Shown here: positions 6,498 through 58,054 of the stretch, piece after piece | Layout: each line of letters opens with the position of its first letter | How positions within the stretch are numbered: position 1 is the first letter of the stretch | DNA from: Quercus robur | Taxonomy: Eukaryota > Streptophyta > Magnoliopsida > Fagales > Fagaceae | Reading direction: 5' to 3' | Assembly: GCF_932294415.1 (NCBI RefSeq) | Contig: NC_065539.1 | Span: 49,681,501-49,745,500 of the forward strand | Length of the DNA stretch: 64,000 nt | Translations under genes and position numbers: made by a program | The notes under the pieces: generated by a model | Databases searched by the model: none | Told to the model about the DNA's origin: nothing | Seen by the model: only the letters and a program-made list of their open reading frames with translations

Positions 6498-6890
6498 CTT
6501 TGTCTCTCCACTCTCACTCACCCTCTCACTCTCTTAGCCTCACCGATCCCGACCCACTCTCACTCACCCTGTCACTCTCTTAGCCTCACCGGTTGGACCC
6601 TCTCACTCTCTCAGCCTCACTGACCAAGACCCACTCTCACTCACCCTCTCACTCTCTCACTCTCTCAGCCTCCCCAACCCTGACCTCGACGCATTCACCC
6701 TCTCAACCTCACCGGTCGGACCCTCTCACTCTCTCAGCCTCATCGACCCTGACCCCGACCCACTCTCACTCACCCTCTCACTCTTTCACTCATCAACCCA
6801 TTGTCACACCTCTCTCAGTCACCCTCACACAGACACCCTGTCACCCTCTCTACTCTCTCACTCACCCTCTACTGTCTCCAGTCTCAGTCA
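6498..6890. repeat. CT-rich minisatellite inside the Mutator-like element
   Basis: Imperfect tandem copies of a unit of roughly 60-80 bp built from CTCTCACTCACCCTCTCAC and a spacer like AGCCTCACCGACCCTGACC. The repeat gives a chance open frame rich in Ser, Pro, Thr and His on the plus strand, which I do not regard as a gene. It lies just inside the left terminal inverted repeat. Confidence 0.8.
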
Positions 6891-7033
6891 TTATAGAGTT
6901 TTGAGTTCCTTTAGTCTACGCGGTCTCTGAAAACAAAAACAAAAAAGTTAAGTCCCTTTATGCAAAATGCAAAGTGTGTTTCACCGTTTGGTTACTGAGA
7001 AATAGTGGGAAAAATCAAAGAAACTTTGGTTTT

Positions 7034-7074
<41 letters not shown>

Positions 7075-14600: not shown

Positions 14601-15008
14601 CCTATTGCTTTCAAATTTAAAAGTTAACTGCTATAATTTATTGATTTTGACAGCCTTTATGCCTTCATGCACAGTCTAGAGGATATTCCAAGCAGTATGA
14701 GCAACCTTAACATTAGATATTCTCTTAAATTTCTCTATAGAAACAGCGTTAAAGATAGCATTCATAACTTTGCTGTTGAACGCGGCTGCTTCTTTTTGAG
14801 AAGTTTACCACTCACTAACCTCCTGTCCATATTTGACGGAGTTCTAGACTCTCTCATCAATTGACTTCAGGAATGCTTTCATCTTTCCTTAAGCATAGTT
14901 ATTCCCATCAAAGTGAGGAGGAATAACAAGAGAATATCCGTGTTCTATGACAATAGGGGTCAAGGATCAGCTCAATAATCAAAAGATCAACAACAAAAGA
15001 GCAACCCA

Positions 15009-31600: not shown

Positions 31601-32083
31601 TCATAGTAACATTTCATTAGAACAGAGAAATTCCAAGGATAACTGAAGGTGCCAATCAATTTTCCTCAAAATTCATAAATAATTCAATTAAACAAAAAAC
31701 AATGGCTATTACACATGCGCATGCGTGTTTTTAACCAACTGAAATCGTACTTGTACGATTACAAGTACAATTTCAGTTAAAAACATGCATATGTATAACA
31801 GTGTATGTAAGAGTTATTTCCGAATATCTCAGAACCCAAAAGCCAACACCCAGATGAGACCACAGTTTGAAGTGAAAAATAGAGTAGCCAAAGAAGTGAA
31901 GTGTGAAAGAAATGTGTACGTAGGTAGGTAGGTACCAAAACCGTCAGTGATGAGAAGGATGGCAAGCTTGGAGTTGGGAGAGCCAGAGACGTAGGTGCTG
32001 AGACCACCAAGCTGTTCAACATGGCCAGCTCCAGCATTTGGGTTCAGGGTTGGTGGGTTTGAGCAACACTGAGGACCAGACAT
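28602..32083 (-). CDS. DLH-B: dienelactone hydrolase family protein, 239 aa
   Basis: Seven exons in gene order: 31936-32083, 31269-31290, 30097-30223, 29685-29775, 29425-29514, 28933-29033 and 28602-28742. Borders are GT-AG and the reading frame is intact (720 nt). The protein starts MSGPQCCSNPPTLNPNAGAG. Cys127 lies in GFCWGG, Asp173 in GAEID and His206 in FPKVEHGW, so the DLH triad is complete. The N-terminal Cys pair (QCC) is shared with DLH-C but reads QFC in DLH-A. No targeting signal is evident. DLH-A is its duplicate, including intron sequence. A TATA box lies 128 bp upstream of the ATG and an as-1-like motif about 185 bp upstream. The physiological substrate cannot be told from sequence. 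Confidence 0.92.
31716..31795. repeat. Short palindromic MITE-like repeat in intron 1 of DLH-B
   Basis: The arms ACTGAAATCGTACTTGTA and TACAAGTACAATTTCAGT are inverted copies, flanked by GTTTTTAA and TTAAAAAC. It is shared with intron 1 of DLH-A. Confidence 0.75.
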
Positions 32084-32210
32084 TATTATTATTCTCTCTT
32101 TTGCGTTTCCTTCTATGAACAGCAAACACAAAACAAAACACAAACTGCTCCTCGGTCTTTGGGCTGCGGGGATTTTGTGTAGTACTTGTACATGGTTGGT
32201 TGGATACTTG

Positions 32211-32222
32211 GATATATATAAG
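32211..32222 (-). promoter_or_regulatory. TATA box of DLH-B
   Basis: The minus strand reads CTTATATATATC, 128-139 bp upstream of the start codon and in the same setting as the DLH-A TATA box. Confidence 0.65.
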
Positions 32223-32267
32223 AAGGTCTAATTTGGGACACTCTGGATCCTAGTTTCTGCTGGATCG

Positions 32268-34463: not shown

Positions 34464-36749
34464 TGTTGAGAACAAATTTTTCACAACACATGGCTTCATT
34501 TTATTGACAATCCGCACCACGTCAACATTATCATGGATTGTGGAAAAATCTCTTTTAAAGCCCAGAAGAATCTATATTCACAAAATGACGTTGAAGCCCA
34601 TGGTTCAAAACTCATGGGAATATAACCTCATCAAAGCCCATAATTCGAGCTCATGGCACAACATCTCATTTTTGGCTCATGATCCAAGCTCATGAGTCTC
34701 ATCGAGGGAATTTTGGGAGTCGTGGTTTAGAGGGCCAAGAAATATGTTCAGTAAAGCTCCAGTAGTTCAAAGTTAACAAAGGAAAGCATGTTGTTTAGCA
34801 TGACTTCCCCAATTCCCTGAACTCTGACAGGTCAGTGTGCAAAAAGTAATATTTGGTAAGCCTCTCATATCACATAATACTTAAAATGATAAAACTCTCC
34901 ATACTCTTTACATAAAAATTAATGTTCATCATATAATATAAGTTCAAAAATGTAATTATAGTATTTCATATAAATTATATTATTATTATCTAAATCAATT
35001 TCAAGCACATGGCTAAATATATATCAGTATCTCATATCTACCTTTAAATGCTCTCCTTACTGTCCAAGATTTGGTTAAAATACAAAAAAATCATAATTAC
35101 ATCTCTAAAACTTCATCAAATATCAACCAACTAGTCTATTACTTACCCAAATTATATATGAACTAAACATATAATTTTCCAAAAAGAGAAAACTTAGCCA
35201 AAAATACCAACAGCAGCTCTAGCAGAAGCTGCAACAGCTCCAACAGAAATAGCTTCTACAGAAACAGCTTTTGCAAAAACTGCAACAGTTCCAGCTGTAG
35301 TACCAGAAATAGAAGGATCTCATAAAGATTATGTTCAAGATGTTTGGTGAAATGCCAAGCCACCTATCTCTCAACATTCTCCACCTAATGAAAAGTGCAT
35401 TGACATCTTTGCTTAGGAGTACAACACGATGCTTAGTTTAGATCCTGACTTGGTGATACATGCTCTCAATGTCAAGCCATGGAGAGATTTATCATGACAT
35501 ATGGACTTTCCATTGCTGTACTCATGTCATTACACTGCTGGACTGTCATAACTTCATTGATATATGGCTGGAGCCTTGAACTTTCAAGATAAGTCACCAC
35601 ATCACTATCTTTAAATCTATATTGAATATATGTTACTCTACTAGCACTATACCACTTAATACAAATTACTTTAATATTATATCATATACATCATTCAATC
35701 AAATCTATCACGTTAAGTATATATTACTTTATCTTGAACATTATTGCAATCATTGTACAAAACATATTATTTATTTCAATAATCATCATGATTTTTAAAT
35801 ATTGGGCTTTGTCTATTTTGTAGGCATAAAACCCATAAGAATTTTCATCCCAATATAGAAGCCTCATCCAAGAAATTCAATAACTCCTTGCCGCTGGAAT
35901 CACCAATCTTGTTCCAATCAATAAAAGAAAGTTTTTCTGAATCATCCACTGAACCAAGTAGATTGGAGATCATCAAATATGCTTTATTAACCCCATCAAG
36001 GCCATGGTAGCCCCACACATATTCAAGGCCATGGTAACCCCATGCACCCTAAAGCCATGGTGACCCCATACATCATATTACTAGAATCATCAAATTCACA
36101 TGAACCATATCATTGGAACCTTTGGAATCTTAAGCATCATCAAGGATGTCAACTACCTCACACCTGGGGGCTTTGATCTAAAAGGCCCAATCAAGCCAGC
36201 ATCTTGGCACCCGGAGACCTTTATCTTGTGAGGGAGGTTTACGATAGTGACTATTATTGTCTAGCCATGGTGGAAGGCAAAAATCTCCCAAAACCTATCA
36301 ATGGCAAATGGTTGGAGCTATATCATGCTTAACTCAATCATCATATTTCCAATAAACTACCTCGAAAATAACTAGTAAGCATTATCTTTTGCCTTAAACC
36401 AACTATGAGTATTTCAAGATATTTTTTCTTACGTCAATATTTGTATTTCTATCTTACTCGCAATGATGACCTTTTACAACTTGGTATCTCCAAAATGAAC
36501 TATCATGACTCCGACAAGTTATTTTCACAAAATAAAATGTATAACTTCCATTACCATAGTTTTGGTTTAAGTGCATCAATTTTTTTTTTTTTTTTTTTTT
36601 TTTTATGATCAAAACATATTTCAAACTTATAAATATTCAAATTTGATAACAACCTCTATGGCTAGACCTTCTAAAAATAAAATGGTCATGTGATTTCAAA
36701 AATAGATATTGCCTCCATGACCATACTTTGATATACTTGGCAATTTTTA

Positions 36750-39430
36750 AAAAGCCCATGAGTCAAGTCGATGGCAAAACTATTTTATCAATGGGATTCA
36801 ACCCCATAATTAAAGCTCATGATTTAAACCCATGGCAAAATTATTTCAACAATGGAATTCAAATACCATATTCAAAGCCCATTACTAAATGGCACCATCA
36901 AAGCCCATTACTAAATGGCAACATCAAGCCCAATTTTCATTGGAAACATCAATAGCCCAATTCTCGCTGGCAACATCAAAAACCCAATTCTCATTGGCCA
37001 CATCAAAGCCTAGTTCTCGCTGGCAATATCAAAAACCTAATTCTCATTGACAACATCAAAAACCCAGTTTTCACTGGTGATAGAGCTGTCCATCTCACCC
37101 GCCGACCCGCCCGTACCTAAGCTCCAAAACCCGACGTCGGCAGTTTGGTTTTGGTTCCCTTCCTTCAAAACCCGTTCAACCTGACCCGCCGGAAGAGAGA
37201 ACGACGAGTTGCAATTTCAAGCTTTCCAACGAGTTTTCCAGCACAATTTGGCAGATTTCGACGACTAAAACACCAGATCCAGCGATTCTCGACACGATTT
37301 GGGGGAAAAAGCATCAGATTTGGCGAAATCTCTGCAAAATCCGGCTAGATTGCACAGGATCTTGGACGGATCAAGAGAGATCTCATCGATTTTCTAATTT
37401 TTTTGTCCTCTCTGGCGGGTTTCGGCCTTGCCCGAAACCGCCGCTCACCCTACAGGAAACCAACTTGTAAAACTCGACCCTAATATGGGTCGGTTGTGGG
37501 TTCGGAACCTCCATTCTCGATCTCCGGTGGGTCGGTTGCGGATTGGGCATAAACCCAACCCGCCCGACCCGTGGACAGCCCTAGCTGGCCACATCAACAA
37601 GCCCAATTCTTATTGGCAACATCAAAAACCTAAGCTAACTACTTAGCACTATCTTATCAAAAGCCCAAGGTTATTAATACTTGGCAAATATTATATTCTA
37701 AATATATTACTAAAAGCTCAAGTACTATTTTCAGCAAACCATCATTTCCAAAAAAAAAAAAAAATCCAAAAACAACTTACAAAAATATTATATCTTACTC
37801 AAAGCCCAAAGTTAATAACCTTTGGCAAAATGGATTTTTCTTTAGCAAACACATTATACTTAAAGTCCAAAGTTAATAACATTTAATAAAATTAAATTTC
37901 ATAATAAGTACATAAGCTAATGAATCATGGCAAATATTTATACCATATTATCTATCTTATGTAATAACACCATTCATTTTTCCAAAACCCATGGCAAACA
38001 TATATCAAGCTCATGGAGAAATGTGAGTGTATGTCATTAATAATTAAGCCCATAGAAATTATATTCAAAACCTATGGCAATTTTATTTATTTTACAAACC
38101 CATGGAAAATATTTGTAAAAATCCATGGAAAATTATGTTATCAAAGTAATTACTTATTCAATGATTATAATAATCAAAAAGCCCATGGTAATTATCTTAA
38201 GCCCCATGGCAATTATTATTTACCTTGCTATTTCACAAAAACACATAAAAGACTCAAATAAAATTATATTATTTCATTATGATAGTTATTTATCTTATAT
38301 TACTAACATTTAAAGCCCAAGACTAATAATACTTGGCAATATCTTAAGCCTAAGGTTAATAATACTTGGCAAATACTATATTATAAATATTTGAAACCCA
38401 ATAATGAACAATTTTTTACAAATTATATTACTAAGCTCTTAAACTTATAGCTATAATTTATACCATATTATAAACCCATTGAATCTATTTTGTAAAACCC
38501 ATGGTAATCATTTATCTTATATCGCATTATGTATCTCTCCACTAATCAAAAGCCCATGGAAATTATTTTAAACCCCGTGGCAATTAATATTTACCTTACT
38601 ATTTTACAAAACCCATGGAAATCATGATAAAAAACAATATTATCATGAAAATTATAATTATTTATCTTATGTTATATTATTTATCCCATTAACATTCAAA
38701 GCCCAAGACCAATAATACTTGGAAACATTTTATCAGAAGCCCAATACTATTTGGCAATATTTTAAAAGCGCAATATCATTTGGCAAACATTATCATAAAG
38801 TCTTAAAAGTCCAAGACTAATAATACTTGGCAAATAAATTATTTCAAATATTTTACTAAAAGCCCAAAACTAATCATATTTGGCAACATAGATTTCCTAA
38901 CATATATATGTACTTATCTATACCACAAGATTTATATAAAAACATAGTAACTATTTATCTTATGGCTAACATACATCAAGCCCATGTAGAAATAGGAACT
39001 TATGTTACTAATATTCAAAACTCATAGAAGTCATATTTGAAACCTACAACAATTACATTTATTTTACAAACCCATGGCACACATTTGTCAAAAGCCCATG
39101 GAAAACTATATTACTAGAGTAATTATTTATTCTATAATTACACTAAATAATAAAAGCCCATGATTCAAGTTCATGGCAAAACTATTTTATCAATGGAATT
39201 CAATCCCATAATCAAAGCCCATGGTTCGAGCCCGTGGCAAATTATTTATCAAAGCCCAAGCACAATAATGCTTGGCAATAGCTTATCAAAAGCCCAATAC
39301 AACATTTTAAAAGGCCCATGATTCAAGTCCATGGCAAAGTTATTTTATCAATGGAATTCAATCTCATAATCAAAGCCCATGGTTCAAGCCCATGGCAAAT
39401 TATTTAACAAAGCTCATGTAGTTAAGAAGA
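36750..39430. repeat. Array of covarying mini-hairpins inside the LTR element
   Basis: The unit pattern is AAAGCCCA + 2-4 variable bases + a 5-14 nt AT-rich loop + the complement of the variable bases + TGGCAA. Examples: 36878 (CCATT/AATGG), 36930 (CCAAT/ATTGG), 37062 (CCAGT/ACTGG), 37664 (CCAAG/CTTGG), 37630 (CTAAG/CTTAG), 37804 (CCAAAG/CTTTGG), 38865 (CCAAA/TTTGG), 39257 (CCAAGCA/TGCTTGG), 39336 (CCATG/CATGG). Thirty or more units can be picked out by eye, at irregular spacing. Some units have one mismatch or G-T pair, and others are decayed. Related units also occur in the LTRs (for example 34650-34700). The inserted MITE at 37081-37583 interrupts the array. Confidence 0.75.
37081..37583. 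mobile_element. hAT-like MITE inserted in the hairpin array
   Basis: The ends are TAGAGCTGTCCA and the inverse of TAGGGCTGTCCA, followed on both sides by ACCCG-rich sequence in inverted orientation. The length is 503 bp. The flanking 8-mers ACTGGTGA and GCTGGCCA match at 5 of 8 positions, as expected for an old or repeat-embedded duplication. The interior has short GC-richer frames without recognisable protein. Confidence 0.7.
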
Positions 39431-40369
39431 AATTGCCAACGGTTCAGCAATGATACTTGCAACAAATCTAGCTCATACTATTTTACCACTTGAACTCATA
39501 CCAACCATACCTTCCTAAGAGCTTCTAACAAAGAGATGGAAATCCGATGCTCTCAATTATCATCATTTACTCAACAACCATTAGTACATTTAGCAAGTCA
39601 TAAAGCCGCCAAGGAATGAGGAACCATTTATTCAAATCAAGAAAAGATTACTCCAGCTGTAACTAAACACATATCCAGCAACCTGCCTAGACAAACAAAA
39701 CAAGCTCCTTATGGCTAGAAGATCTCAACTATCTCTTTGCTACCAAAAAAAAAAAAAAATGATCATCTCAACTGCTAGATACGCCATGTCCTAGTTTACA
39801 AAGGAATCCAGTGGTTACATTCAAATCAGAACTCTAGTTGCTCATGTTCAAAATACCAGCGATATTGTAGTCTATACAGACACCTCCAGCAGTCAGACTT
39901 CTACTAATCAAGCATATTCAAGCAAAACATCATTATATCAGATCATTACCACAGGTGTCTGAGCTGTTTCAAACATCAAAAGTGCCAAGATTCCACTGCT
40001 AAACTTGTCAAGGTGCCTCCCACATTCCCCATCTATGCTTATCCAACGCCTCTACGGGCTTGATTCATTGATTCAAAGGTTCCATTTCTGGGGGCTACAA
40101 TTGGGTATTGATCAACAAAGCTACCACTCCATCTGTGGAAGTTTCAACTACATCAATTTATTATCGTTGAACCCATGAGATAGCCAATGCAACCCATATG
40201 TCCAACAATGCCTATTTTACCATCAGCCATCATCTCTAGCAGCCAACAACATTAGATTCGCTCATTTACAAAGTCTTCAAGAAACATCTTCACTCGTGCA
40301 TGTCCTTGCAAAACAAGCCCTTGCAAGACAAGCCCTTGCAAAGCAAGCCCCTACACTCGGGAGGCTGAA

Positions 40370-43106
40370 TGTTGAGGACAAATTTTTCACATCACATGGC
40401 TTCATTTCATTGGCAACCTGTACCACATCAACATTATCATAGATTTTGGGAAGATCTCTTTTAAAGCCCAAAAGAGTCCATATTCACAAAATGACATCGA
40501 AGCCCATGGACCAAAACTCATGGCTATATAATCTCATCAAAGCCCATAGTTCAAGCTCATGGAAGAACATCTCACTTTTGGCTCATGATCCAAGCTCATG
40601 AGTCTCATCAGGGGAATTTTGGGAGTCGTGGTTTGGAGGGCCAAGAAGTATATTCAGTAAAGTTCCAGTGGTTCAAAGATGATAAAGGAAAGCATGTTGC
40701 TTGGCATGTCTTCCACAATTCCCTGAACTCTGACGGATCAATGTGCAATAGGTAACATTTGGTAAGCCTCTCATATCACATAACACTTAAAATGATAAAA
40801 CTACCCATGCTCTTTACATAAAAATTAATGTTCATCATATAATATAAGTTCAAAAATGTAATTATAGTATTTCATATAAATTATATTATTATCATCTAAA
40901 TCAATTCCAAGCACATGGCTAAATATATATTAGTATCTCATATTTACCGTTAAATACTCTCCTTACTTTCCAAGATTTTGTTAAAATACAAAAAGACCAT
41001 AATTACATCTCTAAAACTTCATCAAATATCAACTAACTAGTCTATTACTTACCCAAATTATATATGAACTCAACATATAATTTTCCAAAAAGAGGAAACT
41101 TAGCCAAAAATACCAATAGCAACTCCAGCAAAAGCTGCAACAGCTTCTGCAGAAACTACAACAGCTTCTGCAGAAACTACAACAGCTCCAACTGTAGTAC
41201 CAGAAATAGAAGGATCTCATAAAGATTATCTTACCATTTTTAGCCAAATCATGAATTTAATACCAAATATTTTCCTCCAACAAAAGTTGTCATTCAGATG
41301 ACATTAGCTAGCTGTAACAACTGTGACTGACAACTGTAATAGAAAACAGCTGTAACAACAGCTCCAATAGTATTAAAGTCTCAAATTTTCTTCTTTTGTG
41401 TAAAAAACAAAAACTCACTAATGAAATCACTTACTTTGTCAAAGACTTTTGCTTATTTGCTAAATTTCCCTTCAACTAATTCTAATTTAGTTACATACTT
41501 GGCTCTATATAAAGAGGACCAAGCTACACACTAAAGGGGCCCATCCCTCTCTCATCCTTAATATTCTGAAACTTCATTCACTTTGCTGCACATATTTCTA
41601 AACTTTTCCATACTTCTCCATCTCCCTTACAAAAATATCTCTTCTTAGATAACACCATTACATCACACCTATTACACCACACCATTATACACTATCCATC
41701 TTTGCCACACTTTAATATTCTGAAACTTCATCATTTTGCTGCCCAAAAATACATCTCCATTTCATTCTTTATTTCTCATACAAGATCTCTCTTCTTAGAA
41801 AGTAACATAACCCATGACATAACACAAAAAACCACTTCGGCAGCAGCTATAATCTCATCTATTTACTCTATTTAACCTTCATATTATCTATCTCACACTT
41901 CCATATATTTTATAAACACATTCCTCACAAAATACTCATACATATTTCTCATATATCTTTAAACTCCATGTCTCACATAATATACATGTACAAGATCCAT
42001 GTCCAACAAAGTATCTACATATAATTCCTATACATATTACAAACACCATATCTCACAAAATATATATATTTCCTTCACACATCTTAAAACATATCAAACA
42101 CTCTTCTAAGAATTTGTTACTAAAAGCCCTTTCCCATGGAAGACGTATATTTATAATAAAAGCCCTTCTTATGAAAGGCAAAAACTTACAATACTAAGAG
42201 TCATTCTCATGGAAGGAAACATCACTCATATTTGACTAAAAAACTAAAAGAGCATTACATGGGAAAAGTCATTTACGTGCATGATGAAAGGGGATAAACT
42301 TAACCAACCTATGTACATGACTGAACATGCTCTCTCTCCCTCCAGTTGCACCCATTCTTCTCCTTCAATCATGAAGTCACCACAGAAGGACTCACAATAT
42401 CATATTGTACTGCTGGACTCATTTTATCATGCTACTGAAACACCATAAGTCCACTGCTGTTCTACGACTGGAGCTACAAACTGTCAAGATAAGTCAAAAT
42501 CTCTCTATATTCAAGATTACATTATTAAGTACATGTTAATTCATTGTTATTGCACCGCTGGATGCAAGTTACTTTAATAATATCTCACCATTTAATAAAT
42601 ATGATCTCACTAGTACTTCATTAATGAATATACATATTAATAAATCGATCTACCACCGTTGCACATATATTTTTTGGAAACGAACTATCATTTGACATAT
42701 ATTATTTGGACATGAACCATTGCTGGACATACCTTATTATTTGAACATGAACCGTGAATCGCAATTGGATATGGACTGTTGGACTCATCCCATTGTTGGA
42801 CATTTGGTACCTAATTAATTATTTTCTAATATAGGACATCACTTAATATACATAATAATAACGTATCAACTCACCATCTAATCAAAGTTATCACGCTAAG
42901 CATATTATTTATTTATTTCAACCATTGTCATGATTTTAAGACTTTGGGCTTCATCTATTTTGTAGGCTTAAAAATACACTAGAAGTCGTTAGTCTATGTG
43001 GCCCAATGTCAAGTTCCGAGTTGAACTCCCTAAAACAAATCTGGGCTTAACAAAGTCACACTTCTAGCAAGAGACACGTGGCTACGCGCAAAAATCGCCC
43101 CCAACA
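40370..43106 (+). repeat. Long LTR copy of the large non-coding element
   Basis: 2737 bp, TGTTGAGG start, CCCCCAACA end, followed at once by a tRNA-Arg-like primer-binding site. Positions 41500-41530 contain a TATA-like CTCTATATAAAGAGGAC, a plausible LTR promoter. Confidence 0.7.
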
Positions 43107-43130
43107 TTTTGGCGACTCCAATGAGGACTC
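43107..43130 (+). promoter_or_regulatory. Primer-binding site-like sequence (tRNA-Arg type)
   Basis: TTTTGGCGACTCCAATGAGG directly follows the LTR end CCAACA. Tat/Ogre-type plant elements use this kind of sequence. The exact tRNA was not checked. Confidence 0.5.
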
Positions 43131-43496
43131 ATAAAGTATAGCTTTATCATGCCTCTAAAAGTCTAGAGTCACATGTCATGAAGAAGATCTCAACTCCAAT
43201 GTATCACACGCTCAATATCTCTTAATCCAGCAGCTCACGGAGTTGAGTCATGACATTATTATGTTCAAGATGTTTGGTGAAATGCCAAGCCACCTATCTC
43301 TCAACATTCTCCACCTAATGAAAAGTACATTGACATCTTTGCTTAAGAGTACAACATGATGCTTAGTTTAGATCCTGACTTGTTGATACATGCTCTCAAT
43401 GTCAAGCCATGAAGAGATTTATCATGACATATGGACTTTCCACTGCTGCACTCATGTCATTACACTGCTGGACTGCCATAAGTTCACTGATATAAG

Positions 43497-45196: not shown

Positions 45197-46474
45197 GAGC
45201 TTAAACAATTTCCAATCTTTGCAATAATGTTTGGGGTTTATGCATGGTTTTTCATGTAAGTTAAGGCAATGTGTAGAGCATAAAGTATGTTATGCAATGG
45301 GCATACATGGCATAATTCTTTTATGTCTGTGAGATCCATACAGCATGCGAGAATGACGTTTTATGTGTTTATTACATAAGGTATCGCCGCGAGTGAGATT
45401 GAGGTGGAATGGTGTGAAGTGGTAGGAATTTGTTCTTGGTTCATTTTGCTTGGCTGGTTCTGTATTTGTCCAAGATGTTTGGTGATTATAATTAGTGAAT
45501 CTTGGTCTGCATTTTGTTCTGCTCTGCAATGGGTTTCTTAAGAGTTGTTTCTTTAGAGATGAAAATTAATGAAAGACGATTGTAAAAGACCTCAATGCGT
45601 GTAATTTGGAAAATTAGCGTTTTTTTTCTTCTTGATGTTAAAGTAAATCAGTTTGCAAGAGCAGAAAAATATGTACTAATGTTCTTTTTGGGAAAATGTA
45701 TAATAAAACACCTTACGAGACAAAAGTCAAAGGTGAGTCTTGTATGTGGACGTTTGGAACCGAAATAAGATCTCAAGTTGACATCTTGATACACTAATTT
45801 TCCATAATGATAAATAGATTCAACGGTGAGTCTCCCTCAAGTTGACATCTTGATACACTAATTTTCCATAATGATAAATAGACTCAATGGTGAGTCTGCC
45901 GTGGGAAGAGCTGTTTCTTTCTTGCTTGATTGGGGGGAGGGGAGGGGGGGTTGTTTCCATTCAGTTATAATCGGGAATTAATGAAAACATGCTTTCACAA
46001 TTTTAACTAAAATTCAGCTAACGTGGCATTGCATATCCCGCACTATGTGTGACTATCATATACTGTAATATCATGACTGAAATTTAGCTGGAAGACTGCA
46101 CTTTGTGCTGGCTGTAGCTAGGCATCAATTCAAGTTTAATACCTTTCTCTGTATATGCCTTGTGAGTAATATTTTCATATCTCATGCTTTAGTAGAGTCT
46201 TGCACTTTGAAGTGAACATATAGCTTCAAATAAAATGAATGGCAAACAAGAATTGGCCATTTAATTAAGACAATTTCAATCAACATTCTAAATTGTACTA
46301 ATTGAAAATAATATCATTAGTAAAATAATCATCCATGAGTATGTAATTATCACCAAATTTCAGAAACAAGGATGCTGATTTCTGCATACAATACATGGAA
46401 AATTAGTCTTCTAGGCACATTGCCTTACAAGCACGTTCAAACCCAGAGAGTTCACTTTCATGTATAAACAATTT
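45197..46474. other. Intergenic, with a 64-bp tandem duplication
   Basis: 45772-45835 and 45836-45899 are nearly identical (blocks CTCAAGTTGACATCTTGATA and CATAATGATAAATAGA). A G-rich run lies at 45932-45951. The first about 300 bp are the 3' region of the dehydrogenase gene. No other gene seen. Confidence 0.6.
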
Positions 46475-49400
46475 TCACTTGACATACTTGGTAAACCAAT
46501 TTAACATGTCCAATTGGGCCTCTTCTGCACTCTTGACGGCTGACTCATCCTCAAGATTGTACCTCACTGACCATCCATGAGCCACACCAGGGAATATTTT
46601 CACAAAGCTATCAAACTGTAAGATATACATAATAGGAGGTTAAATAAAAGCAACTGAATTATTGTTAATTTTGACATTGCAAAGCAGAAAAATCACTCCA
46701 TGTTTGTTGTTGGAAGAAGAAATAACATATTTAATAAAAGTAGCCAGAATATTTACATGCCCCAATGCTGGAACTTCGAAGAGATTATGCTTTCTTATTG
46801 AGAGAAATTTTTTTCTGACCATTAATTATATGTCTTGAAATTCCAGGATTATTACCCAGGCTTCATTAAATGCTGTAAATATTCTATGATGGCAAATTTA
46901 ATTCGACAAATGTTTTAAATTGGAACATAACATTCACATCTATAAAATTTAAAATCATGATGAGAGAATCAAGGAATGACCTTTTCTTAGGTCTTACCTC
47001 AGATTTTTCTGACAACTTCTTTCCAAACTCTTTCAATTGTTCAGGTGGGGAAGTATGGTCAATCTCAGCTCCCAATATAGCAATAGGAACCTTAACATCT
47101 GAAAAAAAATGAACCTTAACATCTCAGACAACATGCAATCAGTAGCATTAATTAGCATGAGCTTGACAAGTGGGAGACTAACCATCAATTTCATCTTCCG
47201 TGATCTTTCCAGGATGTAACACGACAGCAGCCTGAATGTCAGTAGAACTTGCTAATTTCGCTACTACCTTCCCTGGTAAATTTGAAGGGAAGCTAGATAT
47301 TAGTAGCTGAAGCACTCTAGGTTTTCTATGCAAAAACTAATTTCAATCATTCAAGCATGAAGTCATACAACAAATTTAAAATTGAAAGCAAAACACTTAC
47401 CTCCCCAGCAAAAACCTGCAGCCCCTATGGCAGAAACTCCTCTACTCTTCAGAGCCGTAAGCACAGGTTTGGCATCTTCATATCCTTTATCCTAGAAGGA
47501 AATATTATTCAAATTCAGCTCAAAGCAATCAGAAACGTTCAAGCCATACATAATAGATAATAAGCCATTTTATTTCAATCAACTAAGGCCCTGAACAAAA
47601 CATGCATAAATGTTCAATTTGGACATCAAAGGCAAATCAATATGTGCCCTGTTTGATTTCTTGATTCTTGCACAATTTGTCATATGCCCATCCATAGATT
47701 GCAACTGAGAAGCAAGGAACTAACCGTGTTGTGAGTTTTTCGCCATGAGTCTCGATCAAATGTAGGGTCATTAAAATTAATAATAGGGTCCCCATAAAAA
47801 AAATCAGGAACTACCACCAAATATCCAGCTGACGCAACTTTGTCCGCAAGTTTCCTTCACAGCAAGACAATGCATAATATTAATTTCATACTAGTGAACA
47901 ACATTTACTTCCACCAATTCAAACTATAGAGGACAACTGGATATCATTTGGCTTGAGCTTAGATAATTTATGGTTGAATATATCATTAGCATGTGAAAGA
48001 CTACTAGGTGGTATGAGAAAAATCATTTATATGGTAAGAGAAGAAGAAAAGTATGTATCCTGTACTTAGTTTACTGTTTCAGACTTGTGACCTGGAAATT
48101 TTATATTTAGAATGCATATGCACAAGAAGAACAAATAACAATTAGGAACAAGTTTGCTTTACAAGCTCTTAAAATCAGTATGGGAAAACTACCAAAAAGA
48201 AAAAGAAAAAGAAAAAACCCTTATGATTTGCTGTAAAACACGGAGACCCACTAAACTTTAAAATGTAACACATAACACCCCTGTAGTCGTGTTTTAGTTG
48301 GAACTGTTACATCTTCCGTTACTATTGATGGTAAATAACACATGCCTCACACATGCATTTACACAATTCAAACAGAGACTAAAAAGACATGAATATTTCC
48401 CACCTCTTTTTGACGGCTATGAACCATAAAGGCTAAAATTGAGTCATTTAAGTTTAAGCCTTTATAACTGTTGGAAACTTTTCTCTGTTTTAACCTTCTA
48501 GGGTGTGCAAGTGTCCATGTGAGGCAAACACTATCAACAATAACGAAAAATGTTATGGTTAAAAGAAAACCATGACCACAAGGTGGTTGTGTGTCACAAT
48601 TCAAAGTTTGTTTTACAAGCAAACCACAATGGTTTGTTTTTATTTTTTATTTTTAAATAATTTTCCCTTATAGATATTTGCTACTTCATTTTTCTTATTC
48701 TTCTTTGAAATCAGAGACGTAAAGTTTATGAGCTCATCCTTGTATTCACATTTCTTGTTTCATGATTCTCATAAAATCAATCAGTGAAATTCTCAATTCT
48801 CCACTCACATTTAGATCCATTTTATGCACAGTAATAAAATAATACATTTCTTTTGCTAATTCACATTATTTGATTAGCTAAAATTTTCATTCCTCCAAAG
48901 GCTTTGAAATATATTTAAAATGATGTCAAAATATTATAGCCATGATAGGCCTGGTGTTGCTCCATATTAAGGGTTGCTTGTTTATCATCATCCTTTGAAT
49001 GACTTTTTGCAGGCAGAGAAACAAAATTGTAAAATAATGGCATCCATGAAGTTAACAACACATTTAGTTATGTGAAAATTTTCAAATTACTAGTGTTGGG
49101 TCCTGTTTGGTCCAGACCCATAAGGGCTTTTTCACTTATTCATGCCCCAAGCCATCAGGCGTTTTATAAAACTAAGTGGCGGGAACTTCCAGCACACAAA
49201 GCAATAGACACACACAAACGCACAAACACATAGATAGCGAGATATACAAAAGAGGCTAAGAGAACACACAAGTGAAAGAGATAAGGGTTTGGGTGTGAGT
49301 TTTCTTTCCCCCTACAGCAAGTGTCTGAAAGGTGTTTGGGGTCTCATTGTTGTGTAACCTCAAGTTGTGTGATAAAACTTGAGTAGAAAACCATTGTAAC

Positions 49401-50546
49401 TTGTTGTCTATAATAATTTGTTCGGTGTGCAAACCATGGATGTAGGCTTAGTGTAAACCAAGTAAATCTTGTGTGTGCATTGTGTATGCCTTCTATGTGT
49501 TTGATAATTTGTCTCTTATATTCGATATTGCATATATAGCCAGCTTAGCCTTGGTATTTGTCGTGGCTAATTTCCAATACCTCTGTGTTGGTAAATTTAG
49601 AATTTTTTTTTTATAAGATAATTTTATTGAAAAGAGACTGCTTCATGCAAAATGACATAAATCAGCCTAAGAATTACAAACAAAAACAGAAAATTTAGAC
49701 TTGCTTGACAATCCTGGTGGAGACTTTGCTCTCACCAAGAAGTGGCTAGTTTTTCCCAACACCTAGTACATGTATTGTGAAGAAATCCTTAATCCTAGAG
49801 AACGAAAGATTTATAAGCTCAGCTAGCTATGCTTTCAAAACCAATCTTATGTTTCTGTGCTTTTCCTTCAATTATCTAATTTACTAATGTTGTCACAAAA
49901 TTATATCCTCTTATTTTGAGTGACAGTTTTCTTCTAAAATGGAAGCAAGCACCAAAATATGTAACTAGTTGCCTCTATTGATTTGAACCATTTAGTAAGT
50001 TACAAAACACCTGATCCAGTAAAACAAAGAAATCATCGTACCTTAAATTGGGTGCTTCATACCCTGCAAAACATCACCAGATGATACAAAAATTAAATTG
50101 TAGCTCCAAGGAACATTGTCAAATCTATGTATCACATAAAAAAGCAAATTCCACATTCACACACATATGAATATAAGTGAAAGTTGTGAAATTATAAATT
50201 GAATAACAACAAAATCATCCAAACCCAGATGGCAAAAAAAGTTTTTTTGTTTGTTTGTTTTCCTTTAAATGTTTATTATCAATTAAAAAAACTGATCAAA
50301 ACCCACATCTCTAAACTTTTTGAATTATAGATTCAAGAATTTAACATTTACGTGCATGTTATAGTGAAGAAGGAAACACAAGTAAGATGGGGTGGTACCA
50401 AAAACATCGGAAATGAGAAGGATGGCAAGCTTGGAATCTGGAGAGCCAGTGATATAGGTTTGAAGGCCTCCAAATTCTTGGACTGTCCCTGCTCCACAGG
50501 TTGAGCTCAGAGTTGGTGGGTTCTCAAAGCACTGAGAGCTTGACAT
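46475..50546 (-). CDS. DLH-D: dienelactone hydrolase family protein, 240 aa
   Basis: Seven exons in gene order: 50399-50546, 50042-50063, 47725-47854, 47401-47491, 47183-47272, 46998-47098 and 46475-46615 (723 nt), all with GT-AG borders and in phase. The start MSSSQCFENPPTLSSTCGAG was chosen by alignment with DLH-E; an in-frame ATG further up (50684) lies beyond the TATA box. Exon 3 is one codon longer than in the A/B/C group, with an acidic, Asp-rich insert (NFNDPTFDRDSW). The triad is Cys128 (GFCWGG), Asp174 (GAEID) and His207 (GVAHGW). It is a soluble protein with no targeting signal. Intron 2 is 2.2 kb and holds a solo LTR and an old MITE. An as-1-like motif and TATA box sit upstream. 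It forms a head-to-tail pair with DLH-E. Confidence 0.92.
48216..48640. mobile_element. Old MITE in intron 2 of DLH-D
   Basis: The left end (AACCCTTATGATTTGCTGTA) and the right end (TACAAGCAAACCACAATGGT) are roughly inverted copies. A related, similarly placed repeat is in intron 2 of DLH-E (55315-55925), which suggests insertion before the D/E duplication. No target duplication was resolved. Confidence 0.5.
49089..49766. mobile_element. Solo LTR in intron 2 of DLH-D
   Basis: Positions 49094-49761 (668 bp) begin TGTTGGGTCC and end TCCCAACA, a 7-bp inverted end. Flanks are ACTAG and CCTAG (4 of 5). The matching part of DLH-E intron 2 has no insert at its TGTACTAGTTTTGTGAA-like site. The 3' half has the GCAAACCATGGATGTAGGCT style common in Copia LTRs. 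It inserted after D and E separated. Confidence 0.75.
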
Positions 50547-50619
50547 CTTTACAATTTTGAGTGGCAGTGTTGAAGTGTGAAAGTCAGGACTGAGGAGAAA
50601 AGTGGAGGGAATCTCAGGT

Positions 50620-50628
50620 CTTATAGAG
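50620..50628 (-). promoter_or_regulatory. TATA box of DLH-D
   Basis: The minus strand reads CTCTATAAG, about 75 bp upstream of the start codon and directly downstream of the as-1-like motif. Confidence 0.65.
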
Positions 50629-50635
50629 AAGACAG

Positions 50636-50652
50636 CGTCACTGCTTACGTAC
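50636..50652 (-). promoter_or_regulatory. as-1-like motif upstream of DLH-D
   Basis: The plus strand reads CGTCACTGCTTACGTAC: one intact CGTCA half site and, 12 bp on, a degenerate CGTAC half site. It is about 10 bp upstream of the TATA box, as in promoters with a proximal as-1 site. It matches the DLH-E motif in 14 of 17 positions. Confidence 0.55.
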
Positions 50653-51842
50653 GTGTAAGGGTAAAAAATAGAAATGTTTGACAATTCTAGTACCAGGCTG
50701 TTTACCGGAACTATCTTTACGCGGTAAATTATAACCGATGATCTGTCACTTTTTTTATATTAACCTACCATTTTTTATTAGTTATCTTTATTTTATCCTA
50801 TCAGTGTTGTGTCAAAGTTATGGTATAAAATAATGTAGTCTTAGGTTCTTTTAATGTTTGACACATCCGGAAACACAAGCAAAAATAATATTAGTTTGGA
50901 TTTAGTGTTTAGTACAAATGGGATCGTGTCAAAGTGGATTGCATTTGATCCACAATAACCAAATTCATATAAATAATTTTTATTTTTATTTGACTTTAAT
51001 TTTGAGTTTTAAATAATGAATTGAGTTATTAGAACTTAAAAGAGTTTTAATGGTTATATTAACAAATTCTTCATTTTCGGCATTTTTTTTTTAAATAGGT
51101 TGAAATGGGTCTTGGTCGTATCAACTCTATACATGTTTATTAAAAATGTTGAAATAAGTTTGTTTGTATCAACCCAACATGACCTATGTGTTAAGTGTGT
51201 TAAATGGATCGTGTTTTTAAACTAGTGGTTGATGGATTTTGACATTACTATTAAATATGCCACATTAAGATTGATCCATGTAGTTAAATACTCATGTCTA
51301 GATACAAACACGATCCACTATCATGAAATGAGTGAAGGAAACCTAGGTCATCTCTCAAAAATAGCAATTCATTATTCCAGCCATAATATACTAATATTCC
51401 TTCTCTCTCGGTCACGTCATTATGTTACCTTTTGTTTTGTTTTTGTTTTTGCTTTAATAGATAAAATAGACTTCATCTTATGACATCCATTCTATAATAA
51501 TTTATTATTAGACTAAGATACAATTTATTTATTCTTTGTTATTAGATTAAGATACTAATTGGTTTTTTTATGTATAAAGGATTTGAACCTAAGAAGAGAC
51601 CTTACTGATGGAAAATGAATCATTATTTTGAAGGTGCCATTTTTTAATCCATTTCATAATAATTGATTCATTCTTGTCATTAGGCAAAGACACAAATTGG
51701 TTTTTGTGTATAATAAAGGATCTGAACCTAGAGACATTACTGATTGAAAATGAATTATTATTTTGAAACCGCAATTTTTTTAATTTAATACTATCCCATC
51801 AAATCATGAAAACACCTCGAGAAACTGGCTACTTGACTACTT

Positions 51843-52310: not shown

Positions 52311-53402
52311 ATTTTCTCTTGCTTTCAATATTTTTCTCTTCCCTTTTGCTTGCTCTCCCTCACAAAGTTCTTCAAGACTACACTGTCCTCAGTCTCATTC
52401 TCTGGGACTTCTCTTACTCACCGGCAGAATGGCCTCCCCTTTTATTTCATCATCTTTTCCTTCTTTTCTTCCTTTCACACTCTTGATATCAATTCACAAT
52501 AAATACATCCCACTTGCCTTGACTTTGCTTCAGCCAATTTCATTTTTCTTCGACTCTCCCTTAGGTCGAATAGCCTTAATGCATCAGCCCATTTCTTTTC
52601 TCTTTTTCTCCTTAGCGTGTCCAACACGCCTAAGCCAACCAACCCAATAATCATGTTGACTTTTGTACATGATTAAGAAAAGTTAAGAGTGATGAAAGAC
52701 AAGCTCATTTTTTTTAATAAGAAACTTGTAACTTTTATAAAAACGAAGATAACATTGCTACATCATGCAGACTCAATCATAGAAAGGTGTTTCCTCTATC
52801 CAAGCTCATTAAATGAGCATGTCTATTACAAGTGGGCTGGACCCATGGTGCAGTGCACCCAACAATATTGTGATTCTTCGTATGACATATTTATTGAGAA
52901 ACTCTAATCTCACGTAGGATCACCATTAAAGCAGATTTTTTGCCTAGAAATGTCCGGTTAGAGAGGGAATAATAAATAATATTATAAAGTCTCATACTTT
53001 AACAGAAGATATCCTGCTCAAGTGAAGATATAGCCAAATGGCCAAAGAGAGAATTGACCTCTTAATTCAGACAATTTTAATTAATATTCTAAATGGTGCT
53101 AGTACAAAATGATATCGTAAGTAAAATAATCAGCCATAAGTAATTATTACCAAATTTCTGAAACAAGGGTGCTAATCTTTTTTTTTTTTGATAAGCCAAT
53201 TATTGCAACAAGTGACAGAGGGGGATTCAAATCTTGGTTCTTTTCACTAGAAAGACCAAACAATACTACTAAAGTACAAGCTTTTAGGTGAAACAAAGAC
53301 ACTAATTTCTGCATATAATACATAGATAATTACCCGTCTTCTAGCCACATTACCTTACGTTATTTCAACCCTCACATTTCTCTTTCATGTATAAACAAAT
53401 TT
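52311..53402. other. Intergenic between DLH-D upstream region and DLH-E 3' end
   Basis: A pyrimidine-rich stretch at 52300-52650 gives a 117-residue frame without recognisable features. Positions 53170-53290 are a short insert relative to the matching DLH-D flank. No gene seen. Confidence 0.45.
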
Positions 53403-56400
53403 TCACTTGACATACTTGGTAAACCAATTTAACATGTCCAAATGGGCCTCTTCAGCACTCTTGACAGCTGACTCATCGTCAACATTGTACCTCACTGTCC
53501 ATCCATGAGCCACACCAGGATATATCTTCACAAAGCTATCAAACTGAAAGATATAAATAGTAGGAGGTTTAAAAAAGAAGCTGAATTATTGTTAATTTTG
53601 ATATGCAAAGCAGAAAAATCACTCTTCTTTGTTATAGGAAGAAGAAATAATAACTTTTAGCCAGAAGATTTACTATGCTGGAAGAGATTATGCTCTCTTA
53701 TCAAGAGAAATGTTTCTGACCATGAATTTCTAGTCATGAAAGAAATTCCAGTATTTTTACCCAGGCTTCATTAAATGCTGGAAATATACTATGATGGAAA
53801 ATTACTTCAAAAAAAAAAAAAAGACTTAAATTGGAACAAAACATTAACATTTATAAAATTCAAAATATCAATGAATGACTTTTTCTTAGGACATACCTCA
53901 GATTTTTCTGACAACTTCTTTCCAAATTGTTTCAATTGTTCAGGTGGGGAAGAATGGTCGATCTCAGCTCCCAATATTGAAATAGGAATCTTAACATCTG
54001 AAATAATGAACCTGAACATCTAAGACAACATGCTACCTGTAACAAATATTTAGCATGAGCTTGAAAAATGGAAGGCTTACTATTGATTTCATCTTCTGTG
54101 ATCCGTCCAGGATGCAACAAGACCGCAGCCTGAAGGTCAGTAGAACTTGCTAATTTGACCAATACCATTGCTGAAACACATGCACACAAACTAGATGTTA
54201 GCAACTGAAGCACTCCAGGTTTACTGTGCCAAGAAATTTTCAAAAAATTCAAGCATTAAGTTCCTCATCAAAGTTGAAATTGAAATCACATCACTTACCT
54301 CCCCAACAAAAACCTGCAGCCCCTATGGCAGAGAATCCTTTACTCTTCAAAGCTTCAATCACAGGTTTGGCATCTTCAAATCCTTTTTCCTAGAAAGGAA
54401 AATTTATTCAAATTAAGCTCAAAGCAGTCAGAATTAGGTCAGTTCAAGTCATACATTACAGATAAAAAGCATTCAATTTCAACTTTGGCTTTTTAAAAAA
54501 AATGCATAGATGTGTAATAGTATGTCAATTAGGACATCAAACACAATTTGATATGTGCCCTGCTTATTTTCTTGATTCTTGCACAATTTTTCATATGCCC
54601 ATCCTGAAGATCGCAACTGAGAAGCAAGAAACTAACTGTGTTGTGAGCTTTCATCCAGGTGTCTTGATCAAATTTAGGGTCACTAAGATCAGTGACAGAG
54701 TCACCATGCAAAAAATCAGGAACTACCACAAAGAAGCCAGCTGCTGCAACCTTGTCAGCTAGTTTCCTTCATATAGAAGCAATGCATATTATTAATATCA
54801 TATAGCTAGGAATAACTGATATTTGAATGCACTTACATCTAGTTTATCTAGAACATAAAAGTAAATTTGGTTGGTGAATAACAAAATTGATGGAACATAA
54901 AAAGCTCTAAGACATGGTTGATGGCAGTTTGGATCTATGTGCTTAGTAAAAGTTAAAATATGATAAATCATAGTATCTGAAAAACATTTGCTTCCACTAA
55001 TTTGAACTATTGAGGACTGGATATTATTTGGCTCAAGTTTAGATAATTTATTGCAAATATATTTCATTAACATTTGAAGGACTAAAAAGCAGCATAAGAA
55101 AAATCAAATAAATGGTGAGGACAGAAGAAAATAAAGAAGAAGAAGAAAACATTATATACCCTAGACTAAGTATAGCGTTTCGGACTTGTGACCAGAACAC
55201 TTCATAATTAGGATGAACTTATGAAAACACTGCATATTTAGGATGCATAGACAATCAACAATTAGAAACAAGTTCACTTTACAAGCCCTTAAAATCTATA
55301 ATGTGGAAAATGCAGAAAACCCCCTCGCGGTTTGCCTGTAAAACACAAAGACCTCATGAACTTTTATGTTTGACACACAAATCCATGTAATCTTGCTTTA
55401 GTGATGATCGTGACTTTTTCCATTACTATTGATGGTAAATAGTATCTGTACCTCACGTGGGCATTTACACACTCTGAAATGAAGGGCAAAAGAGGAGAGT
55501 CATTTTTGTTACTATCTCCAACCTCTTTCCAAAGGCTATAATTTCCATGAAATTCAAAGAACTTTAGGTCCCTTTGGCCCTTGGATTGCCTGGTTGTGTT
55601 CCATTAGCTAACTAAACATGCCAGAATTTAGGCCAATTACATGTAAATGGCCCAATTTTGGCCTTTATAGCTGTTGGAAAGAGGCATGAAATATTCTTGT
55701 CTCTTTTGTCCCCTATTTCATATACATATATAATTGCCCATGCAAGGCACATGTACTATTTACCTCTATTTTTTTTTTTTTTTTTACTGAAAAAGGTAGA
55801 ACAATTTACCTTTAATGATAATGATAAATTGAAACAGTTATACCTAAAACATGACTTCAAGGATGTAATGGGCCACATGTCAAAATTCAGTGATCATGTC
55901 TTACGGGCAAACCCCATGAATCCCCTTATGGATACTTGCTATTTCATTTTCTTTCTTGGAAATCAGAGTTTGAAAGTTTATAAGCTAACCATTGAATTCA
56001 CTCTCCTTGATATCGTTGTTCTCATAATATTCATCAGCCACAATCTTCACTCAAACTAAAAATTTCAATCCTTCCACGAGCTTCGTGTTTCCCACATTCT
56101 TGGACTTGATATCACTTATTTTTTATTTTCTTTTTTCTTTATTTTTTTCAAATTCATTAACAATGATGTTAAGGATTTCATGTTATTATCATTATCCTGC
56201 GTGGCTGCATCACATCCTTTAAAAGACTTTCTTAGGCAGGTGAACAAAATTGTTGGATAATGATCTTTGTGAAGTTAACAATATATGTATTGGCAGAAAT
56301 CAAGGAAAATCTAGGCCGGTCACAATTACTCAGTGTTACCAAATCTGGTCCTAATAAACCACCATTAGTTGGAGCCTCCTAAGGAAGCAATTCCAAAATA

Positions 56401-57931
56401 ATCTCTAAGCAATTACTCAAATCATACCAAAGTTGGTCCTAGTCAACTACCTTTACTATTGGAAAATTCTAAGGAAGCAATCACATAATACTTTCTAAGA
56501 ATCACTCTTTGTACAATCGATTTTGAATTTAAATTCTTTTTGTATGGAGAATATGTGGTATAATAAAAGGAGATGTAACCTTACTATACTAGCCGAATGA
56601 ACAAGATACAGTTTCTACTTTCTACTCTCCAAATATTCTCTCTAATGTTTGATTTCTTTGAACATGTACTAGTTTTGTGAAAATTAAGAAGAGAAAACTC
56701 TCCGTTCGTCCTTAATCCAATAGAAGGCAAGATTTTATCTCGGAGAATCACTCTTTATAAATTTGGTTTTGAAATTTGAAATTCGTTTTGTATAGAGATT
56801 ATGTTGTGTTATAAAAGGAGAGGTAACCTTGCTATACTAGCTTTCTAATCTCCAAATGTTCTCTTTACTGTTTGATTTCTTTCTACATGTACTAATTTTG
56901 TGAAAATTAAGAAAAGAAGGATCATAGCTGCAAAAAAGCAGATTTCCTTCAAAATCCTTAATCCTAGAGAAGGAAAGATTTATCTCTAAGAGAACCAAGG
57001 GAAAAAAAAATAGCAGCTCAGCAAGCCGTCCTTTAAAAATCATTTCTATCACCTAAGTTGTTTTTCTTTTGCTTTAATGATCCAATGTAACTATTGAATG
57101 TTGTCACATAACTCTATCCTCTTAGTTTGAGTGACAGTTTTCTTTTATATGTAACTAGTTGCCTCTATATAGCGCAATTGAAATATTTGATCCAGTAAAA
57201 TAAAGAAATCATCATACCTGAAATTTGGTGCTTCATAGCCTGCAAAACACCACAAGATGATACATAAAAAAAATGAATTATAGCTCCAAGGAACATAATC
57301 AAATTTATGTCTAATAAAGATAGATCATATTCCTTATTTGTAATGCTATACTTTATCTCCAAGAAAACTGAAGAAACCCACCCCCCCCCCCCCACCCCCA
57401 CACACACACACACATTACACAACAACAACAACAAAAGGCAAGCCTTTGGTCTCAAATTTTGTTGGGGTTGACTATTGATTATCAACTACTAATCATGGTC
57501 AATCACATATTCTTTCTTATCGTTTTATTCTATTCAAAGTCATATTCTTTGTTACTTCATTAACAACGATATCATTCAAACCCAGGTGGCCAATTTTTTT
57601 TTTAAAAATGTTTATTGGGAATTATAATCGCTTTGCAAGGAAAGCTTCCACAAAACTAATCAAAACCCAGGTCCAAAACTTTTGAATTAGAGAATCAAGA
57701 ATGCAAACATGTACATAAACATCATGTATATAAAACACATAAAGAAACAAAGGAACCCAAGTAAGAGAAAAGAAGATAGGTACCAAAACCATCGGAAAGA
57801 AGAAGGATGGCAAGCTTAGAATGAGGAGAGCCAGTGACATAAGTTTGAAGGCCTCCAAACTCTTGGACTGTCCCTGCTCCACAGGTTGAGCTCAAGGTTG
57901 GTGCGTTCTGAAAGCACTGAGAGCTCGACAT
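53403..57931 (-). CDS. DLH-E: dienelactone hydrolase family protein, 240 aa
   Basis: Seven exons in gene order: 57784-57931, 57218-57239, 54637-54766, 54299-54389, 54081-54170, 53897-53997 and 53403-53543 (723 nt), GT-AG borders, frame intact. It starts MSSSQCFQNAPTLSSTCGAG. The triad is Cys128 (GFCWGG), Asp174 (GAEID) and His207 (GVAHGW). It is close to DLH-D throughout. Exon 5 begins AMVLVKLASS where DLH-D has GKVVAKLASS, so the conserved Gly-Lys after the nucleophile loop reads Ala-Met here; this may change the active-site surroundings. Intron 2 is 2.45 kb and contains an old MITE and a tandem duplication. A Mutator-like element carrying a CBBY fragment sits about 260 bp upstream of the ATG, just beyond two as-1-like motifs. 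Confidence 0.92.
55315..55925. mobile_element. Old MITE-like repeat in intron 2 of DLH-E
   Basis: The left part has CCCTCGCGGTTTGCCTGTAA; the right part has TTACGGGCAAACCCC in inverted orientation. It corresponds to the repeat at 48216-48640 in DLH-D but is longer, and the boundaries are approximate. Confidence 0.45.
56500..56930. repeat. Tandem duplication of about 245 bp in intron 2 of DLH-E
   Basis: Copies at about 56500-56700 and 56745-56925 share AGAATCACTCTTT, GTATAATAAAAGGAGA/TTATAAAAGGAGAGG, CTATACTAGC, TCTCCAAATRTTCTC and GTACTARTTTTGTGAAAATT in order. It is absent from DLH-D. Confidence 0.7.
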
Positions 57932-58054
57932 TTTGGTTACAATTGTGATCAGTGGCTGAGTCTGAGCTGCAGCGTCAAAAGTGTTGAAGATTTGGAAGGA
58001 AAAGTGGAGAGGGAAGCTGAGGTTTTAAAGAGAAGAAGACATGAATGGAGTAAA

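Follow-up and report, generated by a model that had tools for sequence, protein, structure and literature searches.

About thirty short inverted repeats at about 36751-39439 of the window (the whole analysed stretch of 64,000 nt from the Quercus robur genome) belong to the interior of an LTR retrotransposon that occurs in many copies and is apparently non-coding, as seen in the window itself, in a near-complete sister copy (L032) and in further copies of the array. As it belongs to the regular interior of such an element in several copies, the array is not a local oddity. The arms of the repeats covary, and the reading favoured here, with a probability of roughly 55 %, is that the stems are kept paired in the active lineage of the element and then decay after insertion, the array acting as a repeated cis signal while the proteins come from an autonomous partner.

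The repeats are delimited by AAAGCCCANN...NNTGGCAAA, with 8-23 nt between these anchors in an anchor scan. On direct inspection of the window, their coordinates agree with those of an earlier sequence-only reading, which had described dozens of small hairpins with covarying arms at this place. Each unit has the form AAAGCC-C-ANN...NNTGGCAAA, i.e., a weak hairpin with a one-base C bulge. The simple arm pairing originally described is thus confirmed with respect to the pairs but has to be amended, as all seven folded examples (GCC-C-A.../...TGGC) form 6-8 pairs and carry one unpaired C in the 5' arm. Nor is the array the only place of such units, similar ones being located inside the LTRs. Array and related units are arranged as follows:

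34594..34659, + strand: two hairpin units of the array design (34594-34620 and 34634-34659) inside the upstream LTR, from the anchor scan
36751..37077, + strand: first block of the hairpin array, including tandem units of about 26-27 bp
37081..37583, no strand assigned: GC-rich, MITE-like insert that does not belong to the array; its 12-bp terminal inverted repeats match at 11 of 12 positions
37586..39439, + strand: second block of the hairpin array, with units of 14, 17, 19, 20 and 27-30 nt
40500..40526, + strand: hairpin unit inside the second LTR, from the anchor scan

The insert splits the array, looks unrelated to it, ends in TAGAGCTGTCCA/TGGACAGCCCTA and is probably a MITE. Directly before the polypurine-like tract, a 15-bp tandem repeat (CCTTGCAAAACAAGC, 40304-40350) contains related AAGCCC-type words, possibly representing a decayed unit form.

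Folding of the array region in 120-nt windows was not notably better than that of shuffled sequence. Mean z-scores were -0.80 and -0.63 on the + strand (2 and 15 windows), as compared to -0.07 to -0.57 on the + strand of three control regions and -0.76 on the - strand of one of them. Whole-region folding was dropped as proof of structure, the energies being ordinary, which is however to be expected of weak, spaced hairpins.

The surrounding element is composed of the following parts:

34464..35335, + strand: LTR start (U3 part) of the upstream copy, beginning with TGTTGAG and 90 % identical to 40370-41232; the rest is missing or rearranged
35328..35564, + strand: segment matching 43258-43494 (96 %), i.e., the sequence after the primer-like site in the second copy
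36192..36332, + strand: candidate (lead) for a degenerate pol tail, a 46-aa frame placed from the coordinates of L013 and also readable in L032 at 61 % identity
40354..40369, + strand: polypurine-like tract directly before the LTR (CGGGAGGCTGAA in the window, CGGGGGGCTGAA or CAGGGGGCTGAA in L031-L033)
40370..43106, + strand: full LTR, TGTTG...CAACA, its start defined by unrelated flanks in many loci and its end by the primer-like site that follows
43110..43127, + strand: primer-binding-like site after the LTR, with 2 of 18 mismatches to a Tat/Ogre-type site
L032, coordinates on its reverse strand: LTR 899-3874; primer-like site 3882; stretch like window 35831-36739; array 6425-9077; pre-LTR stretch; second LTR from 9361

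Among the features of an LTR retrotransposon, the element shows terminal direct repeats whose start is fixed and whose ends are short inverted sequences, a primer-like site and a polypurine-like tract, with a CGGGGGGCTGAA-type tract preceding the 3' LTRs. A search of the window's own genome for the LTR start with the second copy yielded 444 candidate places, 40 of which were scored: 28 of the scored places begin exactly at 40370, 35 within 4 bases, and 4 run on upstream. Differing flanks were observed in 26 of 33 LTR-start rows (37 loci), two pairs of the 26 being alike. Besides the window, 5 of the 67 loci scanned carry a primer-like site on the strand of the array (L032 and L064-L067, the latter four having been fetched for their arrays). 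According to a passage of PMC6317226, tRNA-Arg is among the several primers used by non-chromoviruses. Over their first 640 bp, the two LTRs of L032 share 95.6 % identity. The window copy has an incomplete upstream LTR intermingled with internal sequence, and a primer-like site after its second LTR, which indicates that it is rearranged or belongs to a tandem.

No frame above 97 aa exists in the 5.5-kb interior of L032, the longest antisense frame in this region comprising 89 aa. Four of the eight L032 frames of 70 aa or more and one window peptide were submitted to Pfam, which gave no match at the cut-off for the five peptides and two matches below it (E 0.017 and 0.19). RT and aRNase H domains were not found in L032, the one copy examined. 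Together with LTRs, primer-like site and polypurine-like tract, the lack of longer frames in L032 supports the earlier suggestion of a non-coding retroelement. The 46-aa frame at 36192..36332 has no Pfam match; it resembles the end of plant gypsy pol, and may possibly be the degenerate tail of a pol reading frame. Rfam produced 0 matches in the window at the gathering score, a tRNA scan of the window none, and no relatives were confirmed in viral contigs or prokaryote genomes. In case of L068, another array locus, three frames reach at least 100 aa in a 5.6-kb stretch upstream of the array, and two of them are open over one tandem repeat. This repeat (L068 3364-4011) is of a different kind, open in two frames and built of TAENPLTAGDIHSYLPFRQQRAS-like units.

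Covariation in the window was assessed with units set by the outer anchors alone (CCA...TGG, 4-24 nt apart), the inner arms being shuffled among units; removal of units starting inside the 37081-37583 insert (number unrecorded) left 30. Inner pair 1 is complementary in 25 of these 30 as compared to a shuffled mean of 12.3, pairs 1-2 in 19 (4.8 shuffled) and pairs 1-3 in 8 (1.8 shuffled), whereas the rest of the window is without pairing excess at pair 1 (47/146 vs 44.1 expected on the + strand, 44/146 vs 43.6 on the - strand). Stricter anchors gave 25, 18 and 6 of 30 for pairs 1, 1-2 and 1-3 (12.6, 5.0 and 1.7 shuffled). Shuffling within loop-length classes (n=29, with units 36925 and 38698 one base out of register and unit 38608 doubtful) also left an excess: 24/29 vs 19.1 for pair 1 (p 0.0025), 20/29 vs 12.0 for pairs 1-2 (reached in 0 of 20,000 shuffles) and 7/29 vs 3.7 for pairs 1-3 (p 0.018). 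The CCAT...ATGG units admit a second reading, as direct repeats of a self-complementary core; when they are left out (n=19), the counts are 14 vs 11.2 for pair 1 (p 0.012), 9 vs 3.5 for pairs 1-2 (p 0.0007) and 1 vs 0.5 for pairs 1-3 (p 0.41). A tree-based simulation used 25 of 33 curated units in three classes, too little data for this purpose; paired cells were far over chance (43 vs 22.8, 45 vs 22.9 and 30 vs 20.4), compensatory cells and pair types not (P 0.24-0.67).

Other copies of the element were found in the window's own assembly (785.7 Mb, 42 contigs). When the 3' part of the array was used as query, 425 candidates were obtained, of which 40 were scored, with 103 matches. The sample of loci fetched from the assembly comprises 67, the window's own place included (202 kb without overlap), and contains 347 distinct units with 5 to 25 nt between anchors. 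Pair 1 is complementary in 305 of the 347 units (155.6 in a free shuffle, 264.6 within loop-length classes), pairs 1-2 in 207 (63.8 and 161.8) and pairs 1-3 in 62 (21.3 and 49.3). With identical inner strings counted once, the respective numbers are 140, 94 and 32 of 174, as compared to 115.5, 71.3 and 24.1 within classes. The predicted surplus of paired changes over shuffled arms is therefore present in the window and across copies alike. Genome-wide pattern counts at inner pair 2 were G-C 202, A-T 356, G.T 39 and A.C 58, while the reversed patterns had 0 matches; the odds ratio of 31.8 comes from copies that are not independent, and a formal p value would not be fair, since they are related by descent. 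Mismatched counts at inner pair 1 (T.T 68, A.A 118 genome-wide) stem mostly from unrelated-looking sequences, judged by eye, and no conclusion was drawn from them. Matches to a loose pattern (15,206 vs 1,975 reversed) do not represent a unit count, many of those listed looking unrelated.

Units multiply by tandem and block duplication, as evident from the repeat structure: tandem copies of 26-27 bp, blocks of about 100-200 bp and, in L031, repeats of about 670 bp. The latter form about four head-to-tail blocks (L031 4500-8054), a higher-order repeat inside one element. A tandem run of near-identical 19-nt units (TGattcaaataCA) in L047 (C37 at about 24282600-24283100) probably reflects the recent amplification of a single hairpin type. 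Many of the units go back to few types, as expected if a limited set of founder stems was multiplied by tandem and block duplication. The argument that a variety of stems could not arise through mere tandem duplication accordingly stands only in part: there is more to the array than duplication of one stem, but a limited set of founders, represented by 24 recurrent strings, was multiplied. Among 169 inner strings of at least 8 nt, these 24 occur in three or more loci, 21 in two loci and 124 in one locus. Position 1 is paired in 24/24, 21/21 and 95/124 of them, respectively, and position 2 in 14/24, 17/21 and 76/124. The more frequent pairing of recurrent as compared to private strings suggests that pairing is kept in the copied lineage and decays in copies that are not copied further; the pattern also fits founders that happened to be paired.

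A doubtful explanation holds that a handful of founder palindromes with conserved ends were duplicated in the absence of any pairing pressure, the covariation existing between historically paired founders. It agrees with the 24 recurrent strings, the obvious tandem and block duplications, the excess being far smaller within classes than under free shuffling (305 observed vs 264.6 and 155.6, respectively), the lack of excess of compensatory types in the tree simulation of the window and the four compensated changes among independent sisters (see below), which are of one kind of exchange. It is at odds with the within-class shuffles being still exceeded in the window and in the 67 loci, and with pairing at position 1 in 45 of 45 strings of two or more loci. 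Moreover, at one position of homologous 8-nt units whose loops are almost alike, either A-T or G-C is present, and both mismatched intermediates exist (ATTCTCAT, GTTCTCAC, ATTCTCAC, GTTCTCAT). These homologous units and the within-class excess argue against founders paired by chance, though the events are few.

For the comparison of sisters, 343 of the 347 units were usable, and 140 independent pairs were chosen by flank similarity. The 111 pairs with flanks at least 75 % identical display 22 one-sided changes making or breaking a pair, 2 compensated changes and 2 further one-sided ones that lead from one non-pair to another. For the more distant group of 29 pairs, the numbers are 14 one-sided changes, 2 compensated ones and one double change between non-pairs. 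Double changes among independent sisters are hence compensated in 4 cases vs 1 that is not. All 4 represent an A-T/G-C exchange at pair 1 in the 8-nt class and, being the same exchange, possibly go back to one event. Where both sides differ, a Watson-Crick pair is nearly always formed (32 vs 2, in a count over all pairs, which are not independent). Stems of distant sisters differ at 20 of 116 bases as compared to 33 % in the flanks, i.e., stem divergence is about half that of the flanks. Stems of the closest sisters differ at 8 of 176 bases and their flanks at 1.7 %, the stems thus being the more divergent, partly because the pairs were chosen by their flanks. Trees for four loop classes (221 units, inner pairs 1-2) contain 5 direct transitions from one pair to another and 10 cases in which a single change restored a pair (some of them maybe reversions), as compared to 34 losses of a pair by a single change and one double change ending in a non-pair. 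The stem of unit 39251, one of the two longest in the window, is approached in other copies by one-base steps (AGACC, AGCCC and AGCAC, with the same 3' arm).

Arm correction by the element's own reverse transcriptase, which would switch templates at the hairpins and leave pairing as an unselected by-product of replication, appears unlikely. Such a process would act in active elements only, as the data ask, and creation or repair of stems by template switching is described for DNA replication in parts of PMC8794818. Copying of one arm into the other should, however, often even out the C bulge and the AAA flanks, which is rarely seen. With long anchors, the 202 kb contain 182 bulged forms (AAGCCCA..TGGCAA) vs 0 and 2 of the symmetric forms AAGCCCA..TGGGCTT and TTGCCA..TGGCAA, in addition to 4 of AAGCCA..TGGCAA and 2 of AAGCCCA..TGGGCAA. 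With five-base anchors, GCCCA..TGGCA occurs 254 times, GCCCA..TGGGC 20 times and TGCCA..TGGCA 10 times, these short forms being given without a computed chance level. Inverted loops were not noticed on inspection of the loop-class lists by eye, and the stem of unit 39251 is reached one base at a time in other copies. Switching of the reverse transcriptase could possibly be limited to the stem.

Very little probability is assigned to the units being DNA sites for protein binding, e.g., with one TGGGCTT-type promoter motif per 5' arm and merely incidental pairing. The 5' arm AAAGCCCA indeed reads TGGGCTTT on the other strand, presumably a plant promoter motif, and units are present in the LTR start too; the matched changes inside the stem and the anchor distances varying from 5 to 25 nt are left unexplained by it. 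Template switching in host chromosomal replication, a known mechanism (described in parts of PMC8794818) that would keep the arms complementary, is highly improbable, since it should act in dead copies too, where close sisters differ by 22 one-sided vs 2 compensated changes (111 pairs), and since the asymmetric C is rarely evened out. With respect to the two causes considered in the sequence-only reading, pairing kept in the active lineage, with its predicted function, thus fits better, and arm copying by host replication is disfavoured.

With stems kept paired in the active lineage, those that lost pairing would be disfavoured there and be replaced stepwise by other paired stems, and dead copies would decay one side at a time after insertion, as suggested by recurrent strings, sister comparisons and intermediates. 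Pairing would most likely be kept for the sake of a repeated cis signal on the RNA or the single-stranded cDNA of the element, which may be recognised by proteins borrowed from an autonomous partner, e.g., Gag for packaging or dimerisation. Many copies of the hairpin would help a protein-less element to compete for the proteins of its partner. This packaging or trans-recognition role is proposed on the basis of position, multiplicity and lack of genes. Only tentatively, and as a possibility rather than an expectation, do we suggest that about thirty bulged hairpins, constrained in structure but flexible in sequence, evolved in a protein-less lineage as a multivalent signal for trans-recognition (packaging/dimerisation), selection on pairing being visible as covariation between paralogous hairpins in one transcript. 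Speaking against the favoured explanation are the few independent double changes, the inconsistent inner wobble and the ordinary folding energy, furthermore the lack of compensatory excess in the tree simulation, the stronger divergence of stems than of flanks in the closest sisters and pairing of position 2 in only 14 of 24 recurrent strings.

The two C-G anchor pairs show more T.G than C.A (23 vs 6 among 343 units, the copies not being independent), which fits G.U tolerated in sense RNA. The ratios of G.T to A.C at inner pairs 1, 2 and 3 of the same 343 units are 10:7, 21:34 and 51:37, and 39:58 at inner pair 2 genome-wide (p 0.067, in the direction opposite to wobble tolerance). Wobble asymmetry was rejected as proof of selection on sense RNA, the evidence being mixed, i.e., in favour at the C-G anchors and none or opposite at inner pairs 1-2. 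The signal may be blurred, since most mismatches are probably due to decay after insertion. Alternatively, the structure may be formed in the cDNA or the antisense strand instead of the sense RNA.

The primer-like site resembles the Tat/Ogre type. Unlike Tat, Ogre and Retand elements, gag-pol was not found and there is no large antisense frame in L032 (one copy examined). Repeat-rich regions between pol and the 3' LTR are reported for Tat-lineage elements in passages of PMC11963269, PMC7004042 and PMC6317226, and the oak array is comparable to the tandem repeats between coding part and 3' LTR of Tat, Ogre and Retand Ty3-gypsy elements, which are described as family-specific and variable (PMC11963269 and PMC7004042, in part). 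Its LTR of 2.7 kb contrasts with the 315-1,194 bp given for Retand in a section of PMC11963269. The terms 'hairpin' and 'inverted repeat' are absent from the main text of PMC11963269, and 'hairpin' and 'palindrom' from PMC7004042. LARDs are likewise LTRs around a non-coding internal domain, assumed to be mobile with the proteins of other elements, and are said in a portion of PMC7215508 to specify conserved RNA secondary structures; the oak element is set apart by description, as an array of dozens of small covarying hairpins goes unmentioned for LARDs in that portion. Stems maintained by template switching, as treated in parts of PMC8794818, share the compensatory changes in short stems, whereas the asymmetry of the oak stem mostly persists and close sisters differ one-sidedly. 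A literature search by title and start of abstract, with subscription papers largely outside it, returned no description of covarying hairpin arrays in such an element among the matches listed.

One small structure is present in dozens of paralogous copies, so that pairing, bulge and loop can be compared within a single genome and are directly testable. Since changes in the active lineage can be distinguished from those in dead copies, the array is a natural system in which selection on structure and template switching may be told apart. To our knowledge, it is poorly understood how non-autonomous LTR elements of plants recruit the proteins of autonomous ones.

Elsewhere in the window, a region on the - strand (13255-14630) contains Ty1/copia-type gag-like frames with a zinc-knuckle motif, recognised by eye. 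At 44.2-45.2 kb lies a dehydrogenase gene that shares 98 % identity with a protein cluster bearing the name of Quercus suber, which points to an oak or a close relative as the host. The segments 46238-50632 and 53037-58036 are two long direct copies, pieces of which are about 68-97 % identical over several kb, and the frames 31829-32227 and 50325-50759 (both on the - strand) begin alike with MSxxQCxxNPPTL. These long direct copies and like frame starts point to a likely duplicated hydrolase-like gene cluster.
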